Made by a program: the position numbers and the translations under genes. The notes under the pieces are model-generated. The model did no database searches and was not told the DNA's origin. It saw nothing but the letters and a program-made list of their open reading frames with translations. Of a stretch of DNA of 64,000 bases, positions 6,877 to 61,322 are shown in pieces. Origin of the DNA: Bathymodiolus brooksi (Eukaryota; Mollusca; Bivalvia; Mytilida; Modiolidae); assembly GCA_963680875.1 (NCBI GenBank), contig OY804585.1, forward strand, positions 30,618,186 to 30,682,185, given 5' to 3'. Each line of letters opens with the position of its first letter. Positions within the stretch are counted from its first letter, which is position 1.

Positions 6877-7106
6877 TGAGGTTCGCCCACATATCTATTT
6901 CTGTAACTAGTCGTAGTTAGTAATACATGTGTTGTTACCTCTGCTCGGAGTACCGCCTCGGTGGTGGCTAGTGCTCAGTCGCCTTGATTGTGGTAGATCG
7001 TACGTTCGATTCTCTCTCGGTTCAAACCAATGACGATATTTCATTGATATTTGCTGTTTCTCTGTTAATCACGCAGCATTAAGGAATATGAGCAAACGCT
7101 GGTTAT

Positions 7107-9779
7107 TTTGGATTAAGGATAATGTGTCCTAGTGGAGAGCTACCTGTGAACCGATGTTTCGATGAGCAAGCAGGATGGATAATGTGCAGGGGCGGATCCA
7201 GGATTTGTGGTTAGGGGGGGCGTGAGTAGGCGAGGGGTCTGGGGACGGCTTAAGGTCCCCAGCTGGTTCAGGGTAGAACCCTGGTAGGGGGCCCAGGAGG
7301 GCAGCCCCCCTGAAGCTCTGGGGATTTTAGGAATTACAGACATTTATTTTGAACCAACCACACCATTTTTATCAGACCAAAAAAACTTGATTTGGAGTCT
7401 TAATTTTGTCGGATAATTGTTAACAGTATATTTCTGTCAGATTATAAGATCCTAAAGTAAAACTTTTTTTGAACAACCGTGATGCGAATTGTTCAACTCA
7501 TGACTGATCGATCACGATATTTTAACCCTTCAAAGAACTATTGGTTTAGTTTTAACGCATTCCTCATTACACTAATTGGTCTGTACTTTCGGGTGGTTCT
7601 AGTTAATACTGCCCGTCCGGATGGAGCTTTTCTTTTCGTCGTTTGATTCATTCATTGAAAACATGATTCGACCGTTCTTGTTTATAGACAAACAAAAGCG
7701 GAAATTGTCGGCGAATCAACGAACACACCCAACGTGTATTTACAATGTGTAGGAATATTTTACTACAGGTCATGAAAAAGTTGTTTGTTGAACTGCTTAA
7801 TTAACGTTGTATAACATATGCTTTGCGAATTTTAGGGGGGGAGCACGCCCCCTCTAAATCCGCCCCTGATGTGTCCTATTGGAGCGCTACCCGTGAACCG
7901 TTGTTTCGATGAGCAAGCAGGATAATGTGTCCTAGCGGAGCGCTACCCGTGAACCGCTGTTTCGATGAGCAAGCAGGATAATGTGTCCTAGTGGAGCGCT
8001 ACCTATGAACCGTTGTTTCGATGAGCAAGCAGGATAATGTGTCCTAGTGGAGCGCTACCTCTGAACCGTTGTTTCGATGAGCAAGCAGGATAATGTGTCC
8101 TAGTGGAGCGCTACCTGTGAACCGATGTTTCGATGAGCAAGCAGGATGGATAATGTGTCCTATTGGAGCGCTACCCGTGAACCGTTGTTTCGATGAGCAA
8201 GCAGGATAATGTGTCCTAGTGGAGCGCTACCTGTGAACCGATGTTTCGATGAGCAAGCAGGATGGATAATGTGTCCTATTGGAGCGCTACCCGTGAACCG
8301 TTGTTTCGATGAGCAAGCGGGATAATGTGTCCTAGTGGAGCGCTACCTGTGAACCGTTGTTTCGATGAGCAAGCAGGATAATGGGTCCTAGTGGAGCGCT
8401 ACCTGTGAACCGTTGTTTCGATGAGCAAGCAGGATAATGTGTCCTAGTGGAGCGCTACCTGTGAACCGTTGTTTCGATGAGCAAGCAGGATAATGTGTCC
8501 TAGTGGAGCGCTACCTGTGAACCGTTGTTTCGATGAGCAAGCAGGATAATGTGTCCTAGTGGATCGCTACCCGTGAACCGTTGTTTCGATGAGCAAGCAG
8601 GATAATGTGTCCTAGTGGAGCGCTACCTGTGAACCGTTGTTTCGATGAGCAAGCAGGATAATGTGTCCTAGTGGAGCGCTACCTGTGAACCGTTGTTTCG
8701 ATGAGCAAGCAGGATAATGTGTCCTATTGGAGCGCTACCTGTGAACCGATGTTTCGATGAGCAAGCAGGATGGATAATGTGTCCTATTGGAGCGCTACCC
8801 GTGAACTGTTGTTTCAATGAGCAAGCGGGATAATGTGTCCTAGTGGAGCGCTACCCGTGAACCGCTGTTTCGATGAGCAAGCAGGATAATGTGTCCTAGT
8901 GGAGCGCTACCTGTGAACCGCTGTTTCGATGAGCAAGCAGGATAATGTGTCCTAGTGGAGCGCTACCCGTGAACCGTTGTTTCGATGAGCAAGCAGGATA
9001 ATGTGTCCTAGTGGAGCGCTACCTGTGAACCGTTGTTTCGATGAGCAAGCAGGATAATGTGTCCTAGTGGAGCGCTACCTGTGAACCGTTGTTTCGATGA
9101 GCAAGCAGGATAATGTGTCCTAGTGGAGCGCTACCTGTGTACCGTTGTTTCGATGAGCAAGCAGGATAATGTGTCCTAGTGGAGCGCTACCTGTGAACCG
9201 TTGTTTCGATGAGCGAGCAGGATAATGTGTCCTATTGGAGCGCTACCCGTGAACCGCTGTTTCGATGAGCGAGCAGGATAATGTGTCCTAGTGGAGCGCT
9301 ACCCGTGAACCGCTGTTTCGATGAGCGAGCAGGATAATGTGTCCTAGTGGAGCGCTACCCGTGAACCGCTGTTTCGATGAGCGAGCAGGATAATGTGTCC
9401 TAGTGGAGCGCTACCCGTGAACCGCTGTTTCGATGAGCGAGCAGGATAATGTGTCCTAGTGGAGCGCTACCCGTGAACCGCTGTTTCGATGAGCGAGCAG
9501 GATAATGTGTCCTAGTGGAGCGCTACCCGTGAACCGCTGTTTCGATAAGCGAACAGGATAATGTGTCCTAGTGGAGCGCTACCCGTGAACCGCTGTTTCG
9601 ATGAGCAAGCAGGATAATGTGTCCTAGTGGAGCGCTACCCGTGAACCGCTGTTTCGATGAGCAAGCAGGATAATGTGTCCTAGTGGAGCGCTACCCGTGA
9701 ACCGTTGTTTCGATGAGCAAGCAGGATAATGTGTCCTAGTGGAGCGCTACCTGTGAACCGTTGTTTCGATGAGCGAGCA
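7107..9779 (+). repeat. 56-bp minisatellite array inside SINE-2 (about 35 copies)
   Basis: The unit begins GGATAATGTGTCCTAGTGGA, continues GCGCTACC and ends TTTCGATGAGCAAGCA; the period is 56 bp, with some 60-bp units that carry an extra GGAT. Units differ by few substitutions (CTGTGAACC/CCCGTGAACC, GTT/GCT/GAT, AAGC/GAGC). Runs of neighbouring units share the same variants, for example a block of GCTGTTTC plus GAGCGAGC units at about 9,240-9,540. That pattern fits stepwise local amplification. The array is interrupted at 7,187-7,868 by a MITE. Confidence 0.9.
7187..7868. mobile_element. 682-bp non-autonomous DNA transposon, CAGGGGCGG ends, 5-bp TSD
   Basis: Begins CAGGGGCGGATCCAGG and ends TAAATCCGCCCCTG (imperfect terminal inverted repeats). 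It is flanked on both sides by ATGTG (7,182-7,186 and 7,869-7,873). The interrupted 56-bp unit resumes exactly after the second ATGTG, which proves an insertion. G-rich (left) and C-rich (right) tracts lie just inside the ends. No transposase is encoded. The ends and the 5-bp TSD suggest the hAT superfamily (5-bp TSD group); that is inference. Confidence 0.85.
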
Positions 9780-9902
9780 TTATAAAGATCAAACTGATGG
9801 CGTTTGTCTATAAAATAAAACATATCAATAATAACTTGTTCTCGCCGTGATATGGCTGAATAATTGCTCACGTGACGTTAAACTCCAGTCACTCGCTCAC
9901 TC

Positions 9903-10390
9903 TTCTACAGAGATAATGGACATGTTTTTAAACGGTAACCATCTACAGTTTAAAATTTGAATTAAGCTTCCATTGCTCAAATATACACTGGGATGTAGCA
10001 CAAGTTAACACCCTCTCCCTACAGTTAGAAATCAATCAACCGAAGAGACTTATAATTAGATTGTATTGGTACCATATTGCAACTGTAAATTTGCAACCAT
10101 TGGCCACCATTGACCTTAGAAGTTCGATTATAGATTATTTAAGTCCTTCGGTAACCCATGGATGAGTATGCTCATTCGTCCTCATAATTGGGGGTTTGTT
10201 ATGTAATGAGCCGCCACGGAATCTACAGTTTATCAGACCTTTGGCAAATAGAGTTGGCCGATGAATCCATATGATAAATGCAATACGCTTGCATTGGTAC
10301 AGAAAAACACTCACAATTTCCGCTCAGAGCTCACCCATTCTCAGTGTTCTCCTGCTTGACACTGGTTTTGTGGAAAAAATATGACCTCCC
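9903..10390. other. Non-coding stretch without recognisable features
   Basis: No motif-bearing ORF, repeat or RNA gene was recognised. Confidence 0.5.
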
Positions 10391-22147: not shown

Positions 22148-23065
22148 CTAAACCCAAAACCAAAAACTAGTATACATATATTTGATCACACAATCAAGCC
22201 CATTGTACTTTATGGCTGTGAAATATGGGGCACTTTTAACTCAAATACAGCTAGATTTAGAAATGGAACTGTATCTCCGGACAGAATTTACTCAAATCTC
22301 ATTGGTGAAAAATTACATACTAAATTTTGTAAATTTATTTTAGGTGTTCATAAAAAAACCACCAACTTTGCTGTTTTGTCAGAACTTGGTCGTTTCCCAC
22401 TCTATTACGATATTATAAAAAGTATTCTCCACTATTGGAACCGACTTGAATATCTAGAAAAATTTCCTTTACTACAAAATGCTTATGAACAATCAAAACA
22501 ACTATATAATCAAAACAAATCATCATGGTACGGATCTCTCCAACGTATACTTCAAAATTTTCCAACAATTAGTCAATTGAAAGGAAAGAAAATTTCAAAA
22601 AACAGCCTCAATAGACAAATCAAAGAGGGCTTTTTGGAACTATGGAAAAATCAGATGAAACAATACTCAGAAGGGAAGCTTCGCACTTACACCACATTCA
22701 AAGTACATTCTGGGTTTGAAAATTATCTATCTGTTATCGGTAATTTTGAGCATAGGAGATGTTTAACTAAACTAAGAATCTCAGCACATCGTCTACATAT
22801 TGAGACTGGTAGATACCAGGGTATCCCTCCACACCAAAGGTTGTGTGAGCAGTGCGACTCGGGAGAGGTAGAAGATGAAATTCATTTTCTACTTTGCTGC
22901 AGCAAATTTAGAGAGGAGCGACAACAGCTGTTCAAAACAATATCTCAATCGTGTAACAATTTTCTACAATTAAATCCTCGAGAAAATTTTTACTGGTTAA
23001 TGACCTGTGAAGATGTATCAGTTTTGAAAGAGTTGTGTCGCTTTATTTATAAATACTGCAGATAA
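22148..23065 (+). CDS. LINE ORF2 C-terminal fragment (open, truncated at the 5' end)
   Basis: About 305 codons without a stop. The N-terminal boundary is the truncation point, not a start codon; the first ATG in frame is internal (22,376 is a non-ATG start). It contains the region after the reverse transcriptase (LYGCEIWG; FAVLSELGRFPLYYDIIKS) and the Cys/His motif at about residues 237-255. In intact elements this region belongs to the RT/endonuclease polyprotein and probably contacts nucleic acid. It is unlikely to be functional alone. Confidence 0.7.
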   Translation, partial: LNPKPKTSIHIFDHTIKPIVLYGCEIWGTFNSNTARFRNGTVSPDRIYSNLIGEKLHTKFCKFILGVHKKTTNFAVLSELGRFPLYYDIIKSILHYWNRLEYLEKFPLLQNAYEQSKQLYNQNKSSWYGSLQRILQNFPTISQLKGKKISKNSLNRQIKEGFLELWKNQMKQYSEGKLRTYTTFKVHSGFENYLSVIGNFEHRRCLTKLRISAHRLHIETGRYQGIPPHQRLCEQCDSGEVEDEIHFLLCCSKFREERQQLFKTISQSCNNFLQLNPRENFYWLMTCEDVSVLKELCRFIYKYCR

Positions 23066-32067: not shown

Positions 32068-32225
32068 CCGCGGGTAGACATGTCGCTCCACTCGGACACA
32101 TTATCCTGATTCAGAGCCACCAGTATTTGTTCTTACTCAAAAGCAGAGAAACAGCGAATACAAATTGCATAGTCTTTGGTTTGACCGGAGCTGTTCTCGA
32201 ACCCACGATATACCGCAATCGAAAT
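32068..32225 (-). mobile_element. SINE-2 partial copy, minus strand
   Basis: Contains the inverted central module (GTCGCTCCACTCGGACACAT TATCC), then AGTCTTTGGTTTGACC and the B-box region TCGAACCCACGATATACCGC. The 3' tail is missing. Confidence 0.75.
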
Positions 32226-33365: not shown

Positions 33366-33735
33366 GTGAGTAAGTGAATGATTGTTGTCTAACAACAACT
33401 CAGCAATTGTGCATCTATATCATGACGAGAACAAGTTGATTTTCAATGAAATGATGATGAGATCTGCTTTGTACTAGACCAAAACTCTTTGCTGGATTTT
33501 TTATAGTGCTAGCTCACTGAAACAACAGTCGCGGATAGGCCTGTCGCCCCACTCGGACACATTATCCAGTCAACCAGTCTTTGCTCTTTCTCCTTAATGC
33601 TGCGTGCTTAGCGGAGAACCAACAAATACCATTTTTATAGTCTTTGGTTTGACCTGATCGGGGCTCGAACCCACGATATCGATCTATACCGCACTAGAGG
33701 TGAGAACGCTAACCATTACACCACCGATTGGGTTG
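33366..33735 (-). mobile_element. SINE-2, full length (reference copy), minus strand
   Basis: On the minus strand: a tRNA-like head with A-box GTGTAATGGTTAGCG and B-box GGGTTCGAGCCCCG; GGTCAAACCAAAGACTAT; CGCAGCATTAAGGAGAAAG; the single central module GGATAATGTGTCCGAGTGGG ... TGTTGTTTCAGTGAGC; ACTTGTTCTCGTCATGATAT; and an ACTC-like tail. About 370 bp. Confidence 0.85.
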
Positions 33736-39556: not shown

Positions 39557-39585
39557 TGCTTGTTTTTTTGTGCATTTTTTCAAGG

Positions 39586-40035
39586 AGTGTGGTAGATCGT
39601 GCGTTCGAGTCCCGATCGGGTCAAACCAAAGACTATGCAATTGGTATTTGTTACTTCTCCGCTAAGAACGCAACATTAAGGAGTAAGAGGTCGTCGTGGT
39701 AGTGATCATATGGTAGTTGGCTTTATAACTACCTATGTAATCAGTGCCTGTCACCACTAACGTTGCGAGTTCGAATCCCGCTCAGGCGAAACAACATTAT
39801 GTGATAATGTTTGTCAGTGACTTGCGACAGGTCTTTGGTTTTCACAGTGTACTCCGGTTTCCTGTATCAATAAAAATTATCTTCGTACCATATAACTGAA
39901 ATATTGTTGAAAGTGGCGTTAAACACCCTAACCCTAACCCCATCAATGAGTAATAGCAAAAACTGGCGGAATCAGAATAATGTGTCGGAGTCACGAGACA
40001 TATCTACCCACGTATTGTTGTTTTTGTTACAGTTA
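39586..40035 (+). mobile_element. SINE-2 copy split by a SINE-1 insertion
   Basis: The SINE-2 head and first body part (GTGCGTTCGAGTCCCGATCG, CGCAACATTAAGGAGTAAGAG) end at 39,689. They resume at 39,948 with GAGTAATAGCAAAAACTGGC and AATAATGTGTCGGAGTC, the central module. The 3' part decays after about 40,035. Confidence 0.75.
39690..39947 (+). mobile_element. SINE-1, full length, nested in SINE-2, with 9-bp TSD
   Basis: Head GTCGTCGTGGTAGTGATCAT ATGG, B-box GCGAGTTCGAATCCCGC, the body, and the tail GTTAAACACCCTAACCCTAA CCCC. It is flanked by GAGTAAGAG (39,681-39,689) and GAGTAATAG (39,948-39,956), consistent with target-site duplication with one mutation. This is the best copy for defining both ends of SINE-1. 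Confidence 0.85.
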
Positions 40036-49120: not shown

Positions 49121-49480
49121 CAGTGAGTAAGTGATTGCTGTTTTAATACCAAATGAGCAAAATTTCAGCTCTATCATGGTGAGAACAAGTTACAATTCAA
49201 TGAGATGATGATGATGCCTGCTAGTTCTAGACCAAAACAGTTGGATTTTTATAGCACTAGCTCAAACAACAGTGCACAGGTAGACATGTTGCTCCACTCA
49301 GACACATTATCCTGCTTCCGAGCTAACCGGTCTTTGCTCTTATTCCTATATGTTCTGTGCTCAACGGAAAAGCAGCTAATACCACTTTTATATTCTTTGG
49401 TTTGACCCAATCAGGGCTAGAATCTACAATCTACTGCACTTGAGGTGAACACACTAACAATTACACCACCAACGTTGGTC
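49121..49480 (-). mobile_element. SINE-2, full length, minus strand
   Basis: Minus-strand order: head GGTGTAATTGTTAGTGTGTT, B-box region, GGTCAAACCAAAGAATATA, one central module (GGATAATGTGTCTGAGTGGA), AACTTGTTCTCACCATGATA and a CACTTACTCACTG tail. More diverged than the 33.4-kb copy. Confidence 0.8.
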
Positions 49481-52048: not shown

Positions 52049-55000
52049 TACAGTCAAACCAGCATTAGTGACCACCTCTATTAAGTTACAGTCAAACCTG
52101 CTTTAGTGACCACCTCTATTAAGTTACAGTCAAACCAGCTTTAGTGACCACCTCTATTAAGTTAGTCAAACCTGCTTTAGTGACCACCTCTATTAAGTTA
52201 CAGTCAAACCTGCTTTAGTGACCACCTCTATTAAGTTACAGTCAAACCAGCTTTAGTGACCACCTCTATTAAGTTACAGTCAAACCAGCTTTAGTGACCA
52301 CCTCTATTAAGTTACAGTCAAACCAGCTTTAGTGACCACCTCTATTAAGTTACAGTAAAACTTACTTTAGTGACCACCTCTATTAAGTTAGTCAAACCTG
52401 CTTTAGTGACCACCTCTATTAAGTTACAGTCAAACCTGCTTTAGTGACCACCTCTATTAAGTTACAGTCAAACCTGCTTTAGTGGCCATCTCTATTAAGT
52501 TACAGTCAAACCTGCTTTAGTGACCACCTCTATTAAGTTACAGTCAAACCTGCTTTAGTGACCACCTCTATTAAGTTACAGTCAAACCTACTTTAGTGAC
52601 CACCTCTATTAAGTTACAGTCAAACCTGCTTTAGTGACCATCTCTATTAAGTTACAGTCAAACCTATTTTAGTGACCACCTCTATTAAGTTACAGTCAAA
52701 CCTGCTTTAGTGACCACCTCTATTAAATTACAGTCAAACCAGCTTTAGTGACCACCTCTATTAAGTTACAGTCAAACCAGCTTTAGTGACCACCTCTATT
52801 AAGTTACAGTCAAATCTGCTTTAGTGACCACCTTTATTAAGTTACAGTCAAACCTACTTTAGTGACCACCTCTATTAACATACAGTCAAACCTGCTTTAG
52901 TGACCACCTCTATTAAGTTACAGTAAAACTTACTTTAGTGACCACCTCTATTAAGTTACAGTCAAGCCTGCTTTAGTGACCACCTCTATTAAGTTACAGT
53001 CAAACCTACTTTAGTGACCACCTATATTAAGTTACAGTCAAACCTACTTTAGTGACCACCTCTATTAAGTTACAGTCAAACCTACTTTAGTGACCACCTC
53101 TATTAAGTTACAGTCAAACCTGCTTTAGTGACCACCTCTATTAAGTTACTGTCAAACGTACTTTAGTGACCACCTCTATTAAGTTAGTCAAACCTGCATT
53201 AGTGACCACCTCTATTAAGTTACAGTCAAACCTGCTTTAGTGACCACCTCTATTAAGTTACAGTCAAACCTGCTTTAGTGACCACCTCTATTAAGTTACA
53301 GTCAAGCCTGCTTTAGTGACCACCTCTATTAAGTTACAGTCAAACTTGCTTTAGTGACCACCTCTATTAAGTTACAGTCAAACCTGCTTTAGTGACCACC
53401 TCTATTAAGTTAGTCAAACCTGCTTTAGTTACCACCTCTATTAAGTTACAGTCAAACCTACTTTAGTGACCACCTCTATTAAGTTACAGTTAAACCTGCT
53501 TTAGTGACCATCTCTATTAAGTTAGTCAAACCTGCTTTAGTGACCACCTCTATTAAGTTACAGTCAAACCTACTTTAGTGACCACATCTATTAAGTTACA
53601 GTCAAACCTACTTTAGTGACCACCTCTATTAAGTTACAGTCAAATCTACTTTAGTGACCACATCTCTTAAGTTACAGTCAAACCAGCTTTAGTGACCACC
53701 TCTATTAAGTTACGATCAAACCTGCTTTAGTGACCACCTCTATTAAGTTAGTCAAACCTGCTTTAGTGACCACCTCTATTAAGTTACAGTCAAACCTGCT
53801 TTAGTGACCACCTCTATTAAGTTACAGTCAAACCTGCTTTAGGGGCCATCTCTATTAAGCTACAGTCAAACCTGCTTTAGTGACCACCTCTATTAAGTTA
53901 CAGTCAAACCTGCTTTAGTGACCACCTCTATTAAGTTACAGTTAAATCTACTTTAGTGACCACCTCTATTAAGTTACAGTCAAACCTACTTTAGGGACCA
54001 CCTCTATTAAGTTACAGTCAAACCTGCTTTAGTGACCACCTCTATTAAGTTACAGTCAAACCTGCTTTAGTGACCACCTCTATTAAGTTACAGTCAAACC
54101 TGCATTAGTGACCACCTCTATTAAGTTACAGTCAAACCTGCTTTAGTGACCACCTCTATTAAGTTACAGTCAAACCTACTTTAGTGACCACCTCTATTAA
54201 GCTACAGTGAAACCTGCTTTAGTGACCACCTCTATTAAGTTACAGTCAAACCTGCTTTAGTGACCATCTCTATTAAGTTACAATCAAACCTACTTTAGTG
54301 ACCACCTCTATTAAGTTACAGTCAAACCTAATTTAGTGACCACCTCTATTAAGCTACAGTCAAACCTGCTTTAGTGACCACCTCTATTAAGTTACAGTCA
54401 AACCTGCTTTAGTGACCACCTCTATTAAGTTATAATCAAACCTGCTTTAGTGACCACCTCTATTAAGTTACAATCAAACCTACTTTAGTGACCACCTCTA
54501 TTAAGTTACAGTCAAACCTACTTTAGTGACCACCTCTATTAAGCTACAGTCAAACCTGCTTTAGTGACCACCTCTATTAAGTTACAGTCAAACCTGCTTT
54601 AGTGACCACCTCTATTAAGTTACAATCAAACCTGCTTTAGTGACCACCTCTATTAAGTTACAATCAAACCTACTTTAGTGACCACCTCTATTAAGTTACA
54701 GTCAAACCTACTTTAGTGACCACCTCTATTAAGTTACAGTCAAGTGACCACCTCTATTAAGTTACAGTCAAACCTGCTTTAGTGACCACCTCTATTAAGT
54801 TACGATCAAACCTGCTTTAGTGACCACCTCTATTAAGTTACAATCAAACCTACTTTAGTGACCACCTCTATTAAGTTACAGTCAAATCTACTTTAGTGAC
54901 CACCTCTATTAAGTTACAGTCAAACCAGCTTTAGTGACCACCTCTATTAAGTTACAGTCAAACCTGCTTTAGTGACCACCTCTATTAAGTTACAGTCAAA

Positions 55001-58000
55001 CCTGCTTTAGTGACCACCTCTATTAAGTTACAGTCAAACCTGCTTTAGTGGCCATCTCTATTAAGTTACAGTCAAACCTGCTTTAGTGGCCATCTCTATT
55101 AAGTTACAGTCAAACCTGCTTTAGTGACCACCTTTATTAAGTTACAGTCAAACCTGCTTTAGTGACCACCTCTATTAAGTTACAGTTAAATCTACTTTAG
55201 TGACCACCTCTATTAAGTTACAGTCAAACCTGCTTTAGTGACCACCTCTATTAAGTTACAGTCAAACCTGCTATAGTGACCACCTCTATTAAGCTAGTCA
55301 AACCAGCTTTAGTGACCACCTCTATTAAGTTACAGTCAAACCTACGTTAGTGACCACCTCTATTAAGTTACAGTCAAGTGACCACCTCTATTAAGTTACA
55401 GTCAAACCTGCTTTAGTGACCACCTCTATTAAGTTACAGTCAAACCTACTTTAGTGACCATCTCTATTAAGTTACAGTCAAACCTACTTTAGTGACCACC
55501 TCTATTAAGTTAGTCAAATCTACTTTAGTGACCACCTCTATTAAGTTAGTCAAACCTGCATTAGTGACCACCTCTATTAAGTTACAGTCAAACCTGCTTT
55601 AGTGACCACCTCTATTAAGTTACAGTCAAACCTGCTTTAGTGACCACCTCTATTAAGTTACAGTCAAGCCTGCTTTAGTGACCACCTCTATTAAGTTACA
55701 GTCAAACCTGCTTTAGTGACCACCTCTATTAAGTTACAGTCAAGCCTGCTTTAGTGACCACCTCTATTAAGTTACAGTCAAACCAGCTTTAGTGACCACC
55801 TCTATTAAGTTACAGTCAAACCTGCTTTAGTGATCACCTCTATTGAGTTAGTCAAACCTGCTTTAGTGACCACCTCTATTAAGTTACAGTCAAATCTACT
55901 TTAGTGACCACCTGTATTAAGTTACAGTCAAACCTACTTTAGTGACCACCTCTATTAAGTCACAGTCAAACCTACTTTAGTGACCACCTCTATTAAGTTA
56001 CAGTCAAACCTGCTTTAGTGACCACCTCTATTAAGTTACAGTCAAACCTGCTTTAGTGACCACCTCTATTAAGTTACAGTCAAACCTGCTTTAGTGACCA
56101 CCTCTATTAAGTTACAGTCAAACCTGCTTTAGTGACCACCTCTATTAAGTTACAGTCAAACCTGCTTTAGTCGCCATCTCTATTAAGTTACAGTCAAACC
56201 TGCTTTAGTGACCACCTCTATTAAGTTACAGGCAAACCTGCTTTAGTGACCACCTCTATTAAGTTACAGTTAAATCTACTTTAGTGACCACCTCTATTAA
56301 GTTACAGTCAAACCTACTTTAGTGACCACCTCTATTAAGTTACAGTCAAACCTACGTTAGTGACCACCTCTATTAAGTTACAGTCAAACCTGCTTTAGTG
56401 ACCACCTCTATTAAGTTACAGTCAAACCTGCGTTAGTGACCACCTCTATTAAGTTACAGTCAAACCTGCTTTAGTGACCACCTCTATTAAGTTACAGTCA
56501 AACCTGCATTAGTGACCACCTCTATTAAGTTACAGTCAAACCTACTTTAGTGACCACCTCTATTAAGTTACAGTCAAGTGACCACCTCTATTAAGTTAGT
56601 CAAACCTGCTTTAGTGACCACCTCTATTAAGTTACGATCAAACCTGCTTTAGTGACCACCTCTATTAAGTTACAATCAAACCTACTTTAGTGACCACCTC
56701 TATTAAGTTACAGTCAAATCTACTTTAGTGACCACCTCTATTAAGTTACAGTCAAACCAGCTTTAGTGACCACCTCTATTAAGTTAGTCAAACCTGCTTT
56801 AGTGACCACCTCTATTAAGTTACAGTCAAACCTGCTTTAGTGACCACCTCTATTAAGTTACAGTCAAACCTGCTTTAGTGGCCATCTCTATTAAGTTACA
56901 GTCAAACCTGCTTTAGTGACCACCTTTATTAAGTTACAGTCAAACCTGCTTTAGTGACCACCTCTATTAAGTTACAGTCAAACGTAATTTAGTGACCACC
57001 TCTATTAAGTTAGTCAAATCTACTTTAGTGACCACCTCTATTAAGTTAGTCAAACCTGCATTAGTGACCACCTCTATTAAGTTACAGTCAAACCTGCTTT
57101 AGTGACCACCTCTATTAAGTTACAGTCAAACCTGCTTTAGTGACCACCTCTATTAAGTTACAGTCAAGCCTGCTTTAGTGACCACCTCTATTAAGTTACA
57201 GTCAAACTTGCTTTAGTGACCACCTCTATTAAGTTACAGTCAAACCTGCTTTAGTGACCACCTCTATTAAGTTAGTCAAACCTGCTTTAGTTACCACCTC
57301 TATTAAGTTACAGTCAAACCTGCTTTAGTGACCACCTCTATTAAGTTACAGTCAAGTGACCACCTCTATTAAGTTACAGTCAAACCTGCTTTAGTGACCA
57401 CCTCTATTAAGTTACAGTCAAACCTACTTTAGTGACCACATCTATTAAGTTACAGTCAAACCTACTTTAGTGACCACCTCTATTAAGTTACAGTCAAATC
57501 TACTTTAGTGACCACCTCTATTAAGTTACAGTCAAACCAGCTTTAGTGACCACCTCTATTAAGTTACAGTCAAACCTGCTTTAGTGATCACCTCTATTGA
57601 GTTAGTCAAACCTGCTTTAGTGACCACCTCTATTAAGTTACAGTCAAATCTACTTTAGTGACCACCTCTATTAAGTTACAGTCAAACCTACTTTAGTGAC
57701 CACCTCTATTAAGTCACAGTCAAACCTACTTTAGTGACCACCTCTATTAAGTTACAGTCAAACCTGCTTTAGTGACCACCTCTATTAAGTTACAGTCAAA
57801 CCTACTTTAGTGACCACCTCTATTAAGTTACAGTCAAGTGACCACCTCTATTAAGTTAGTCAAACCTGCTTTAGTGACCACCTCTATTAAGTTACGATCA
57901 AACCTGCTTTAGTGACCACCTCTATTAAGTTACAATCAAACCTACTTTAGTGACCACCTCTATTAAGTTACAGTCAAATCTACTTTAGTGACCACCTCTA

Positions 58001-60414
58001 TTAAGTTACAGTCAAACCAGCTTTAGTGACCACCTCTATTAAGTTAGTCAAACCTGCTTTAGTGACCACCTCTATTAAGTTACAGTCAAACCTGCTTTAG
58101 TGACCACCTCTATTAAGTTACAGTCAAACCTGCTTTAGTGGCCATCTCTATTAAGTTACAGTCAAACCTGCTTTAGTGACCACCTTTATTAAGTTACAGT
58201 CAAACCTGCTTTAGTGACCACCTCTATTAAGTTACAGTCAAACGTAATTTAGTGACCACCTCTATTAAGTTAGTCAAATCTACTTTAGTGACCACCTCTA
58301 TTAAGTTAGTCAAACCTGCATTAGTGACCACCTCTATTAAGTTACAGTCAAACCTGCTTTAGTGACCACCTCTATTAAGTTACAGTCAAACCTGCTTTAG
58401 TGACCACCTCTATTAAGTTACAGTCAAGCCTGCTTTAGTGACCACCTCTATTAAGTTACAGTCAAACTTGCTTTAGTGACCACCTCTATTAAGTTACAGT
58501 CAAACCTGCTTTAGTGACCACCTCTATTAAGTTAGTCAAACCTGCTTTAGTTACCACCTCTATTAAGTTACAGTCAAACCTGCTTTAGTGACCACCTCTA
58601 TTAAGTTACAGTCAAGTGACCACCTCTATTAAGTTACAGTCAAACCTGCTTTAGTGACCACCTCTATTAAGTTACAGTCAAACCTACTTTAGTGACCACA
58701 TCTATTAAGTTACAGTCAAACCTACTTTAGTGACCACCTCTATTAAGTTACAGTCAAATCTACTTTAGTGACCACCTCTATTAAGTTACAGTCAAACCAG
58801 CTTTAGTGACCACCTCTATTAAGTTACAGTCAAACCTGCTTTAGTGATCACCTCTATTGAGTTAGTCAAACCTGCTTTAGTGACCACCTCTATTAAGTTA
58901 CAGTCAAATCTACTTTAGTGACCACCTCTATTAAGTTACAGTCAAACCTACTTTAGTGACCACCTCTATTAAGTCACAGTCAAACCTACTTTAGTGACCA
59001 CCTCTATTAAGTTACAGTCAAACCTGCTTTAGTGACCACCTCTATTAAGTTACAGTCAAACGTACTTTAGTGACCACCTCTATTAAGTTAGTCAAATCTA
59101 CTTTAGTGACCACCTCTATTAAGTTACAGTCAAACGTAATTTAGTGACCACCTCTATTAAGTTACAGTCAAACCTGATTTAGTGACCACCTCTATTAAGT
59201 TACAGTTAAACCTGCTTTAGTGACCACCTCTATTAAGTTACAGTCAAACCTACTTTAGTGACCACCTCTATTAAGTTACAGTCAAATCTACTTTAGTGAC
59301 CACCTCTATTAAGTTACAGTCAAACCAGCTTTAGTGACCACCTCTATTAAGTTATAGTCAAACCTGCTTTAGTGACCACCTCTATTAAGTTACAGTCAAA
59401 CCTGCTTTAGTGACCACCTCTATTAAGTTACAGTCAAACCTGCTTTAGTCACCATCTCTATTAAGTTACAGTCAAACCTGCTTTAGTGACCACCTCTATT
59501 AAGTTACAGGCAAACCTGCTTTAGTGACCACCTCTATTAAGTTACAGTTAAATCTACTTTAGTGACCACCTCTATTAAGTTACAGTCAAACCTACTTTAG
59601 TGACCACCTCTATTAAGTTACAGTCAAACCTACGTTAGTGACCACCTCTATTAAGTTACAGTCAAACCTGATTTAGTGACCACCTCAAATTAAGTTACAG
59701 TCAAACCTGCGTTAGTGACCACCTCTATTAAGTTACAGTCAAACCTGCTTTAGTGACCACCTCTATTAAGTTACAGTCAAACCTGCATTAGTGACCACCT
59801 CTATTAAGTTACAGTCAAACCTACTTTAGTGACCACCTCTATTAAGTTACAGTCAAGTGACCACCTCTATTAAGTTGGTCAAACCTGCTTTAGTGACCAC
59901 CTCTATTAAGTTACGATCAAACCTGCTTTAGTGACCACCTCTATTAAGTTACAATCAAACCTACTTTAGTGACCACCTCTATTAAGTTACAGTCAAATCT
60001 ACTTTAGTGACCACCTCTATTAAGTTACAGTCAAACCAGCTTTAGTGACCACCTCTATTAAGTTACAGTCAAACCTGCTTTAGTGACCACCTCTATTAAG
60101 TTACAGTCAAACCTGCTTTAGTGACCACCTCTATTAAGTTACAGTCAAACCTACTTTAGTGACCATCTCTATTAAGTTACAGTCAAACCTACTTTAGTGA
60201 CTACCTCTATTAAGTTACAGTCAAACCTGCTTTAGTGACCACCGCTATTAAGTTACAGTCAAGCCTGCTTTAGTGACCACCTCTATTAAGTTACAGTCAA
60301 GCCTGCTTTAGTGACCACCTCTATTAAGTTACAGTCAAGCCTGCTTTAGTGACCACCTCTATTAAGTTACATTTAAACCTGCTTTAGTGACCACCTCTAT
60401 TAAGCAATAACTTG
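52049..60414 (+). repeat. 38-bp satellite array, about 220 copies, inside a troponin T intron
   Basis: The unit is TTACAGTCAAACCTGCTTTA GTGACCACCTCTATTAAG (38 bp). Frequent variants: a 36-bp form lacking CA (TTAGTCAAACC), a 28-bp form lacking ACCTGCTTTA (TTACAGTCAAGTGACC), and point variants CCAGC, CCTAC, CAATC, CGATC and GGCCATCTC. A higher-order organisation is visible, with identical runs of variants about 1,260 bp apart. No open reading frame or CRISPR-like spacers. Confidence 0.95.
56515..59060 (+). repeat. 1,260-bp higher-order repeat, two essentially identical copies
   Basis: The sequence from about 56,515 to 57,775 repeats from about 57,775 to 59,060 with the same order of variants. 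Examples: the 28-bp units at 56,573/57,833, the CAATCAAACC unit at 56,673/57,933, the AACGTAATTT unit at 56,981/58,241 and the ATTGAGTTAGTC unit at 57,597/58,857. All are offset by exactly 1,260 bp. Outside this block neighbouring units differ, so this is a recent segmental tandem duplication. Confidence 0.85.
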
Positions 60415-61322
60415 TATTATGTGACCTTAATCTAATTTCTCTTCATGGTGCTTTTCATATCAATGAAACCTGTCTTATGTGACCCTATTTCAATGATCCA
60501 TTAGAAGGTCAAATAAGACAAGTTTGACTGTATTTGTCAATACCATTATGTAAAATTATATAATTCTTAGCAGAAATTCCCAGAAGCCAACTGAAAATAA
60601 AAATAAAAAATAAAATAACCAAACTCAATCAACAGTTCAACTAAAATTCAGTTTAGTTTCCATATTTAAATTGCGCAAATTCTACAACTCCCCAAAGAAA
60701 GGAGTTAAATTTAAATCAATATTGGGCATAGTCACTAATTGCATATTTGGACGTGAATCAAACTATCATATAATAAAGGCCACAACTGTCCCTCTGAGTG
60801 TGTTTAATATTATGGTTAATATATAGAGTATGTACCAGTAGATGAGGTGTGATTCAAGATTCTCTTCTCATTGCACAAAAGAAAAATACCCTATCAAGTA
60901 GTCCCTTCTTATCAGGCCACTCCTGACAAAGGCCAAATAAATTGTTCCCCTTAAGAGAGACCATCCCTCTTATATGGTAATTATTTTCATAGCAGAAGGG
61001 GCGTCCTTATAAGTGGGGGTTACTGTATAAGAATATTCTAAGTAATTTTTGTGGAAGTTTGTGTCGTCCAAGCTTTTGTTGTTTTGTTTTCTTTTACCAT
61101 TTTGCTTGTAAGGTTGTTGATTTTTTTGTATCAGGAACATTCGTTTATTTGAATATCTTTTTGGATTAAGATACTCACATCACACATGTATCATTAGTAA
61201 GAAAGGGTACAGATGTAACTGAACATGAGAGACTATCAAATTTTCCAGGCAGACGCACATTAAATGAAAGGAACTGTGCTTTTATTGCTGTTTTATTTCT
61301 AGTATTTTTATTCAGTACTTAC
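60415..61322. other. Troponin T intron with diverged satellite relatives
   Basis: GAAACCTGTCTTATGTGACC (about 60,465-60,484), GACAAGTTTGACTGTATTTG (about 60,518) and CCTTATAAGTGGGGGTTACT (about 61,004) resemble the satellite unit or its flanks. They may be the dispersed parent sequence from which the array grew. Confidence 0.5.

Follow-up and report, generated by a model that had tools for sequence, protein, structure and literature searches.

Tandem arrays built from parts of SINEs are known in detail from squamate reptiles, in which Vassetzky et al. 2023 (PMC10702118) described SINE-derived satellites (sSats) in a study of 56 genomes. The snake unit is 67 nt long, most arrays have a single SINE end left while minor variants still have both, subvariants alternate, and cobra units are 89% alike as against 64% for SINE copies; whether SINE-derived satellites are restricted to squamates is given as uncertain by its authors. 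In humans, Ahmed and Liang (2012, PMC3389668) counted 7,276 of 31,472 minisatellites as derived from transposable elements; in the same paper, which cites Jurka and Gentles 2006, an AluJo is reported to contain 17 copies of 52 bp that grew in place. EhSINE1 of Entamoeba histolytica carries 1-4 internal repeats of 26-27 nt, and some of its copies moved recently (PMC2996970). A review (PMC6947457) holds further cases, together with a model in which short repeats flank the first duplicated motif.

The locus described here adds one case to the known SINE-derived tandem arrays. It lies in a 64-kb stretch of mollusc DNA, which we call the window, and consists of a SINE copy with 35 tandem units of its central module. 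Like the squamate sSats, it repeats a portion of a SINE in tandem, and beyond the terminal unit the SINE sequence runs on; most snakes have many such loci per genome, whereas one locus is known here, and unlike the sSats, which mostly have one extended end, this array keeps both ends, belongs to a different SINE and resides in a mollusc (PMC10702118). An internal SINE segment is repeated in place, as in Alu-derived minisatellites, but in 35 copies rather than the 17 of the AluJo array and in another kind of SINE (PMC3389668). Internal tandem repeats between conserved ends are also found in EhSINE1 (PMC2996970), but this locus has 35 of them, in a single copy that shows no sign of mobility. The arrangement resembles SVA (SINE-VNTR-Alu) in placing a VNTR between retroelement-derived parts (PMC5857280), but SVA is a composite mobile family, and in the present array it is a segment of the element's own sequence that has been amplified. 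Tandem repeats inside mobile elements are shared with the Helitron-linked satellites of molluscs, with the difference that the host element here is a SINE (PMC5139131). A literature search for SINE-derived arrays in molluscs, covering titles and the starts of abstracts, found no case, and a search with SINE sequence fragments gave no match; none is described in the portions consulted of the bivalve transposon paper PMC10294476 or of PMC12692304.

The expanded copy comprises the following features, in window positions.

6956-9902, locus overall: SINE head, 35-unit array and SINE tail
6956-7116, plus strand: SINE head with decayed A and B boxes, together with the stretch up to the central module (nhmmer, blastn)
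7106-7109, plus strand: run of four T between head and array, a possible Pol III stop
7117-9779, plus strand: tandem array of 35 units of the SINE central module, split by a nested element (TRF, cut at unit start)
7117-7176, plus strand: unit 1, a 60-bp variant with an extra GGAT
7182-7186, no strand assigned: left copy of a 5-bp target duplication, ATGTG (read from the sequence)
7187-7868, no strand assigned: 682-bp element nested in unit 2, its terminal inverted repeats perfect over 11 bp, CAGGGGCGGAT (read from the sequence)
7869-7873, no strand assigned: right copy of the target duplication, ATGTG (read from the sequence)
9780-9902, plus strand: SINE tail, running on from the last unit as in intact copies (nhmmer, pairwise alignments, blastn)

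The original prediction that about 35 tandem copies replace a single central module agrees with our count: when the array was cut at the unit start motif and the later insertion left out, it resolved into 31 units of 56 bp and four 60-bp units, all four of which carry an extra GGAT. TRF calls the 56-bp array at 7869-9779, with 33.9 copies and 95% matches. The earlier reading of the array is thereby confirmed, but it had overlooked the 682-bp foreign element in unit 2, whose removal together with one ATGTG restores a complete unit. Its ends and the 5-bp duplication suggest that this element may be hAT-like. Elsewhere in the window it has a 33-bp end match only, at 46.4 kb (blastn); its terminal sequence CAGGGGCGGAT occurs six times, three times on each strand, of which two are its own ends and the others lie at 10390, 36809, 46208 and 46390. 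Because this sequence recurs, the nested element probably has relatives in the window.

Both ends of the expanded copy belong to a SINE that is present elsewhere in the window. A profile search finds the head at 6959-7175 (nhmmer E 4.1e-59) and the tail at 9720-9901 (E 2.3e-50), with a model that itself contains the expanded copy, and independent blastn matches link the head to S39 (1.5e-18), S33 (2.7e-15) and L001 (7e-19), the relatives listed below. Within the window, blastn also places the left flank of the array at four other sites (39.6, 33.6, 49.4 and 32.2 kb), the unit in the stretch that follows the head at 33.5, 49.3 and 32.1 kb, and the tail at 42.4, 17.8, 33.4 and 49.1 kb (E 1e-12 to 3e-7).

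33369-33723, minus strand: S33, full-length SINE with one central module (blastn, alignment, nhmmer)
49122-49468, minus strand: S49, full-length SINE with one central module (blastn, alignment, nhmmer)
32068-32222, minus strand: S32, SINE copy that has lost its 5' end and tail and retains the first part of a single module (nhmmer E 3.1e-36)
39585-40027, plus strand: S39, SINE copy split by a SINE-like element (nhmmer E 4.1e-30 and 5.9e-13)
498-857 of JAJVLF010000109.1: L001, full-length SINE of this family from another assembly

The two intact copies at 33.4 and 49.1 kb have the head-module-tail order that had been claimed for them, with the correction that both lie on the minus strand. S39 retains its head at 39585-39689 and one eroded module within 39941-40027. 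By eye, the SINE-like element inserted between these parts (39690-39940) has a B-box-like GTTCGAATCCC and a tail like that of the present SINE; its end CCCTAACCCTAACCC, a CCCTAA end, resembles the animal telomere repeat, and its flanks TTAAGGAGTAAGAG and TCAATGAGTAATAG look like an old target duplication. L001 was found with an exact pattern taken from the conserved sequence that precedes the module, which returned 1 record in the genome-contig collection, and was examined over 8000 of the 9120 bases of its record. All 9 of the blastn matches between L001 and the window fall in this SINE. The contig is binned as a Campylobacterota MAG and is probably host contamination in a symbiont assembly. 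Just ahead of its SINE there is, by eye, a reverse-transcriptase-like reading. The exact unit pattern gave no match in the genome-contig collection, and four exact patterns gave none in the viral-contig collection, searches that diverged copies would escape.

The profile was built from S33, S49, L001 and the collapsed expanded copy, which match it by construction. Besides single array units, its matches in the window are S33, S49, both parts of the expanded copy, S32 and two parts of S39, followed by three headless SINE copies at 41.8, 42.3 and 63.0 kb. The copies at 41.8 and 63.0 kb are uninformative on module number because both start inside the module. Eight weak matches (E 5.6e-7 to 0.2) consist of seven to the tail and one that is head-like; tail matches alone cannot identify this SINE, since by eye its tail seems to recur in one or more further SINE-like elements of the window (39.69-39.93 kb). 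In all five of the other copies that run into the module from the head side (S33, S49 and L001 in full, S32 and S39 in part), the central module is single, and the profile search found no second multi-module array in the 64-kb window.

The unit of the array is homologous to this single central module. Head, one consensus unit and tail, joined in that order, align collinearly to S33, S49 and L001 with scores of 234, 224 and 258, against maxima of 40, 43 and 47 among 200 simple shuffles each; the alignment to L001 begins within the head. Identities to S33, S49 and L001, respectively, are 76%, 68% and 75% for the head, 84%, 85% and 79% for the unit and 73%, 75% and 75% for the tail, and the three relatives are 79-84% identical among themselves. 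Aligned by itself, the unit consensus reaches 59 with the module of S33, 58 with that of S49, 54 with that of L001 and 47 with that of S32, whereas none of 3000 random 85-base stretches drawn from the window exceeds a maximum of 26; the eroded module at 40.0 kb, with 24, falls below that maximum and does not rise above chance by this measure. The origin of the array in this SINE's central module, between the SINE's own head and tail, is thus borne out by the collinear alignments and by the profile search, and the relatedness of head and tail to the intact copies, at which the original prediction had declared itself vulnerable, was upheld by alignments well above shuffles. As in other SINE-derived minisatellites, the unit corresponds to a SINE segment that is single in other copies, and SINE sequence extends from the terminal units, here at both ends. 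The unit consensus carries a 6-bp deletion relative to S33, S49, S32 and L001, and the units therefore descend from one module that had already changed.

The family can be described as a SINE with Pol III boxes. An A-box motif matches at 11/11 positions in all three full-length relatives (S33, S49 and L001), which, the motif being short, is weak evidence alone, and the B-box motif matches at 11/11 in S33, 9/11 in S49 and 10/11 in L001. A tRNA origin is no more than suggested by the A and B boxes, since neither Rfam at its gathering score nor ARAGORN finds a tRNA in the window, and in S33, L001 and the expanded copy the Rfam tRNA model finds nothing at E values up to 10. The A box of the expanded copy is decayed. 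Compared with S33 and S49, that box has a 5-bp gap; the best matches to the A motif are 9/11 at 6971, 6991 and 7018, amid nineteen matches of 8/11 that represent background. The B motif reaches 9/11 at 7003, the same as in S49. The T run at 7106-7109 is absent at that place in S33 and S49, and the nested element adds eleven runs of at least four T, one of them of seven. T runs alone are weak evidence, since the relatives also carry them elsewhere (S33 one, S49 three, L001 one).

If the expanded copy represented a SINE subfamily that retroposes with a central array of variable number, as SVA does in hominoids and EhSINE1 in Entamoeba, then both ends should be found around an internal array, as they are, and the identity of only 68-76% between its head and tail and those of the relatives would fit a distinct subfamily; EhSINE1 is also an example of mobility in SINEs that carry a small number of internal repeats (PMC2996970). 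Against this reading, the 64 kb hold no second expanded copy and all five other copies are single-module, the A box is decayed with four T ahead of the array, and no target duplication of the expanded copy was found among exact matches. We regard such a subfamily as improbable. The longest exact match between the flanks of the expanded copy is 6 bp, like that of random pairs, and exact matches gave no convincing target duplications for S33, S49 or L001 either; because no target-site duplication was found, the retroposition of the expanded copy rests on family membership. A working promoter, transcription or retroposition of the expanded copy, which the original prediction had entertained, is not borne out given the 5-bp gap in the A box, a best match of 9/11 and the T run before the array, and nothing seen in the sequence suggests that the copy is still mobile.

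The expanded copy is an old one. Counting sites at which S33, S49 and L001 agree, its private changes number 27/110 in the head, 2/40 in the unit and 15/72 in the tail, where the head count is inflated because the multiple alignment is unreliable in its first columns and places the A-box gap unlike the pairwise alignment. The unit has changed less than the flanks (2/40 versus 42/182, P 0.008), and amplification of a fully decayed copy would need further assumptions for this reason. In the other three copies the module has 6/120 private changes against 49/469 in the flanks (P 0.08). Either the module seems to be slow-changing in general, or the expanded copy seems to come from a subfamily with different ends.

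The order of units within the array points to growth by local steps. Units differ from each other by 4.4% on average in pairwise comparison and by 3.0% from the consensus, with 20 distinct 56-mers among the 35 units and seven units identical. Neighbouring units differ at a mean of 2.09 positions versus 2.69 expected (P 0.0004, 5000 permutations), and units at lag 2 are likewise closer than chance (P 0.002, 5000 permutations); lags 5 and 9 give P 0.05 and 0.03, and the remaining seven lags up to 11 exceed 0.05. The 60-mers are units 1, 6, 8 and 17, each followed by a unit with T16/C29 (P ~1e-4, in a test chosen after looking), and the four 116-bp two-unit blocks so formed differ from each other at 1-5 positions. 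Blocks of unit types recur exactly only where a single type is repeated (HH, SS, SSS); the two-unit blocks resemble each other without being identical. Because neighbours are alike, a two-unit block recurs four times and units are 4.4% apart, we favour local duplication by slippage, unequal exchange or conversion. The TIR insertion postdates the block structure, since the pair that it splits, units 1 and 2, is itself one of the four blocks. RNA structure was rejected as a cause of amplification, two units (7945-8056) folding no better than shuffles (z 0.51).

The edges of the array are not decayed, the first unit being 2 bases away from the consensus and the last unit 1. That these units are about as near the consensus as inner ones would be expected if a pre-existing satellite of this unit had inserted into, or recombined with, a SINE copy holding the homologous module, but both junctions are collinear with the intact SINE, the array has no foreign flanks, and an origin of the unit in the SINE module would be required anyway; we consider this quite improbable. 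Inflation or collapse of the copy number through an assembly error, which the seven identical units might suggest, is very improbable indeed, since 20 distinct unit sequences in structured order, plus a nested element, are unlike a simple misassembly, but the exact unit number of 35 may be wrong.

We consider it very probable that the locus arose through SINE insertion, duplication of the module in place, growth to 35 units and a later TIR insertion. An ordinary SINE copy would have inserted at the locus, and its single central module (about 56-62 bp) would have been duplicated head to tail in place, with breakpoints of little homology. The resulting pair would then have expanded to 35 units through replication slippage, or unequal exchange plus conversion, in one- and two-unit blocks, and the TIR transposon would have entered unit 2 afterwards. 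The array junction reads AGCA/GGATAATG, and the bases ahead of the module are AAGCA in S49 and ATCA in S32 and L001. Because these resemble the junction, a microhomology of 2-5 bp, seen in some relatives only, may have helped the first duplication; in S33 (GACT) and the expanded copy (TTAA), the corresponding bases have at most one base in common with the unit end. Since the source module, both element ends, the array and the later insertion are all present, some of the events can be put in order. The molecular mechanism of growth, and the restriction of the event to this locus, are what we infer.

A further mobile element of the window also seems to hold a large array. A 38-bp satellite (205 copies by TRF, which also lists it with period 114) apparently lies within a TIR element at 52051-60530: it begins CAGTCAAACC, and the sequence that follows it ends GTTTGACTG at 60530, with TA on either side; the satellite's trimer period is not confirmed, because identity drops steadily over lags 38, 76 and 114 in ungapped comparison. 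At 22148-23065, a 305-aa open frame resembles, by eye, the end of a LINE protein.

No function need be invoked for the expanded locus, a non-coding minisatellite within a decayed SINE. It was first called a satellite; with 35 units at one known locus it is a minisatellite, and no dispersed satellite is shown. It provides a clean snapshot of a tandem array starting inside a mobile element and a clear example of a known route from mobile elements to tandem repeats. A SINE lineage with an expansion-prone conserved module, which would form arrays of varied length at many loci and seed a new satellite family, appears unlikely, and it is even less likely that the expanded copies of such a lineage would retropose as well; if such a lineage did exist, SINE-derived satellites would extend from squamates to a mollusc. 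With the locus itself, SINE-derived arrays, which are known in detail from squamate reptiles, would extend to a mollusc, a member of a distant animal group.
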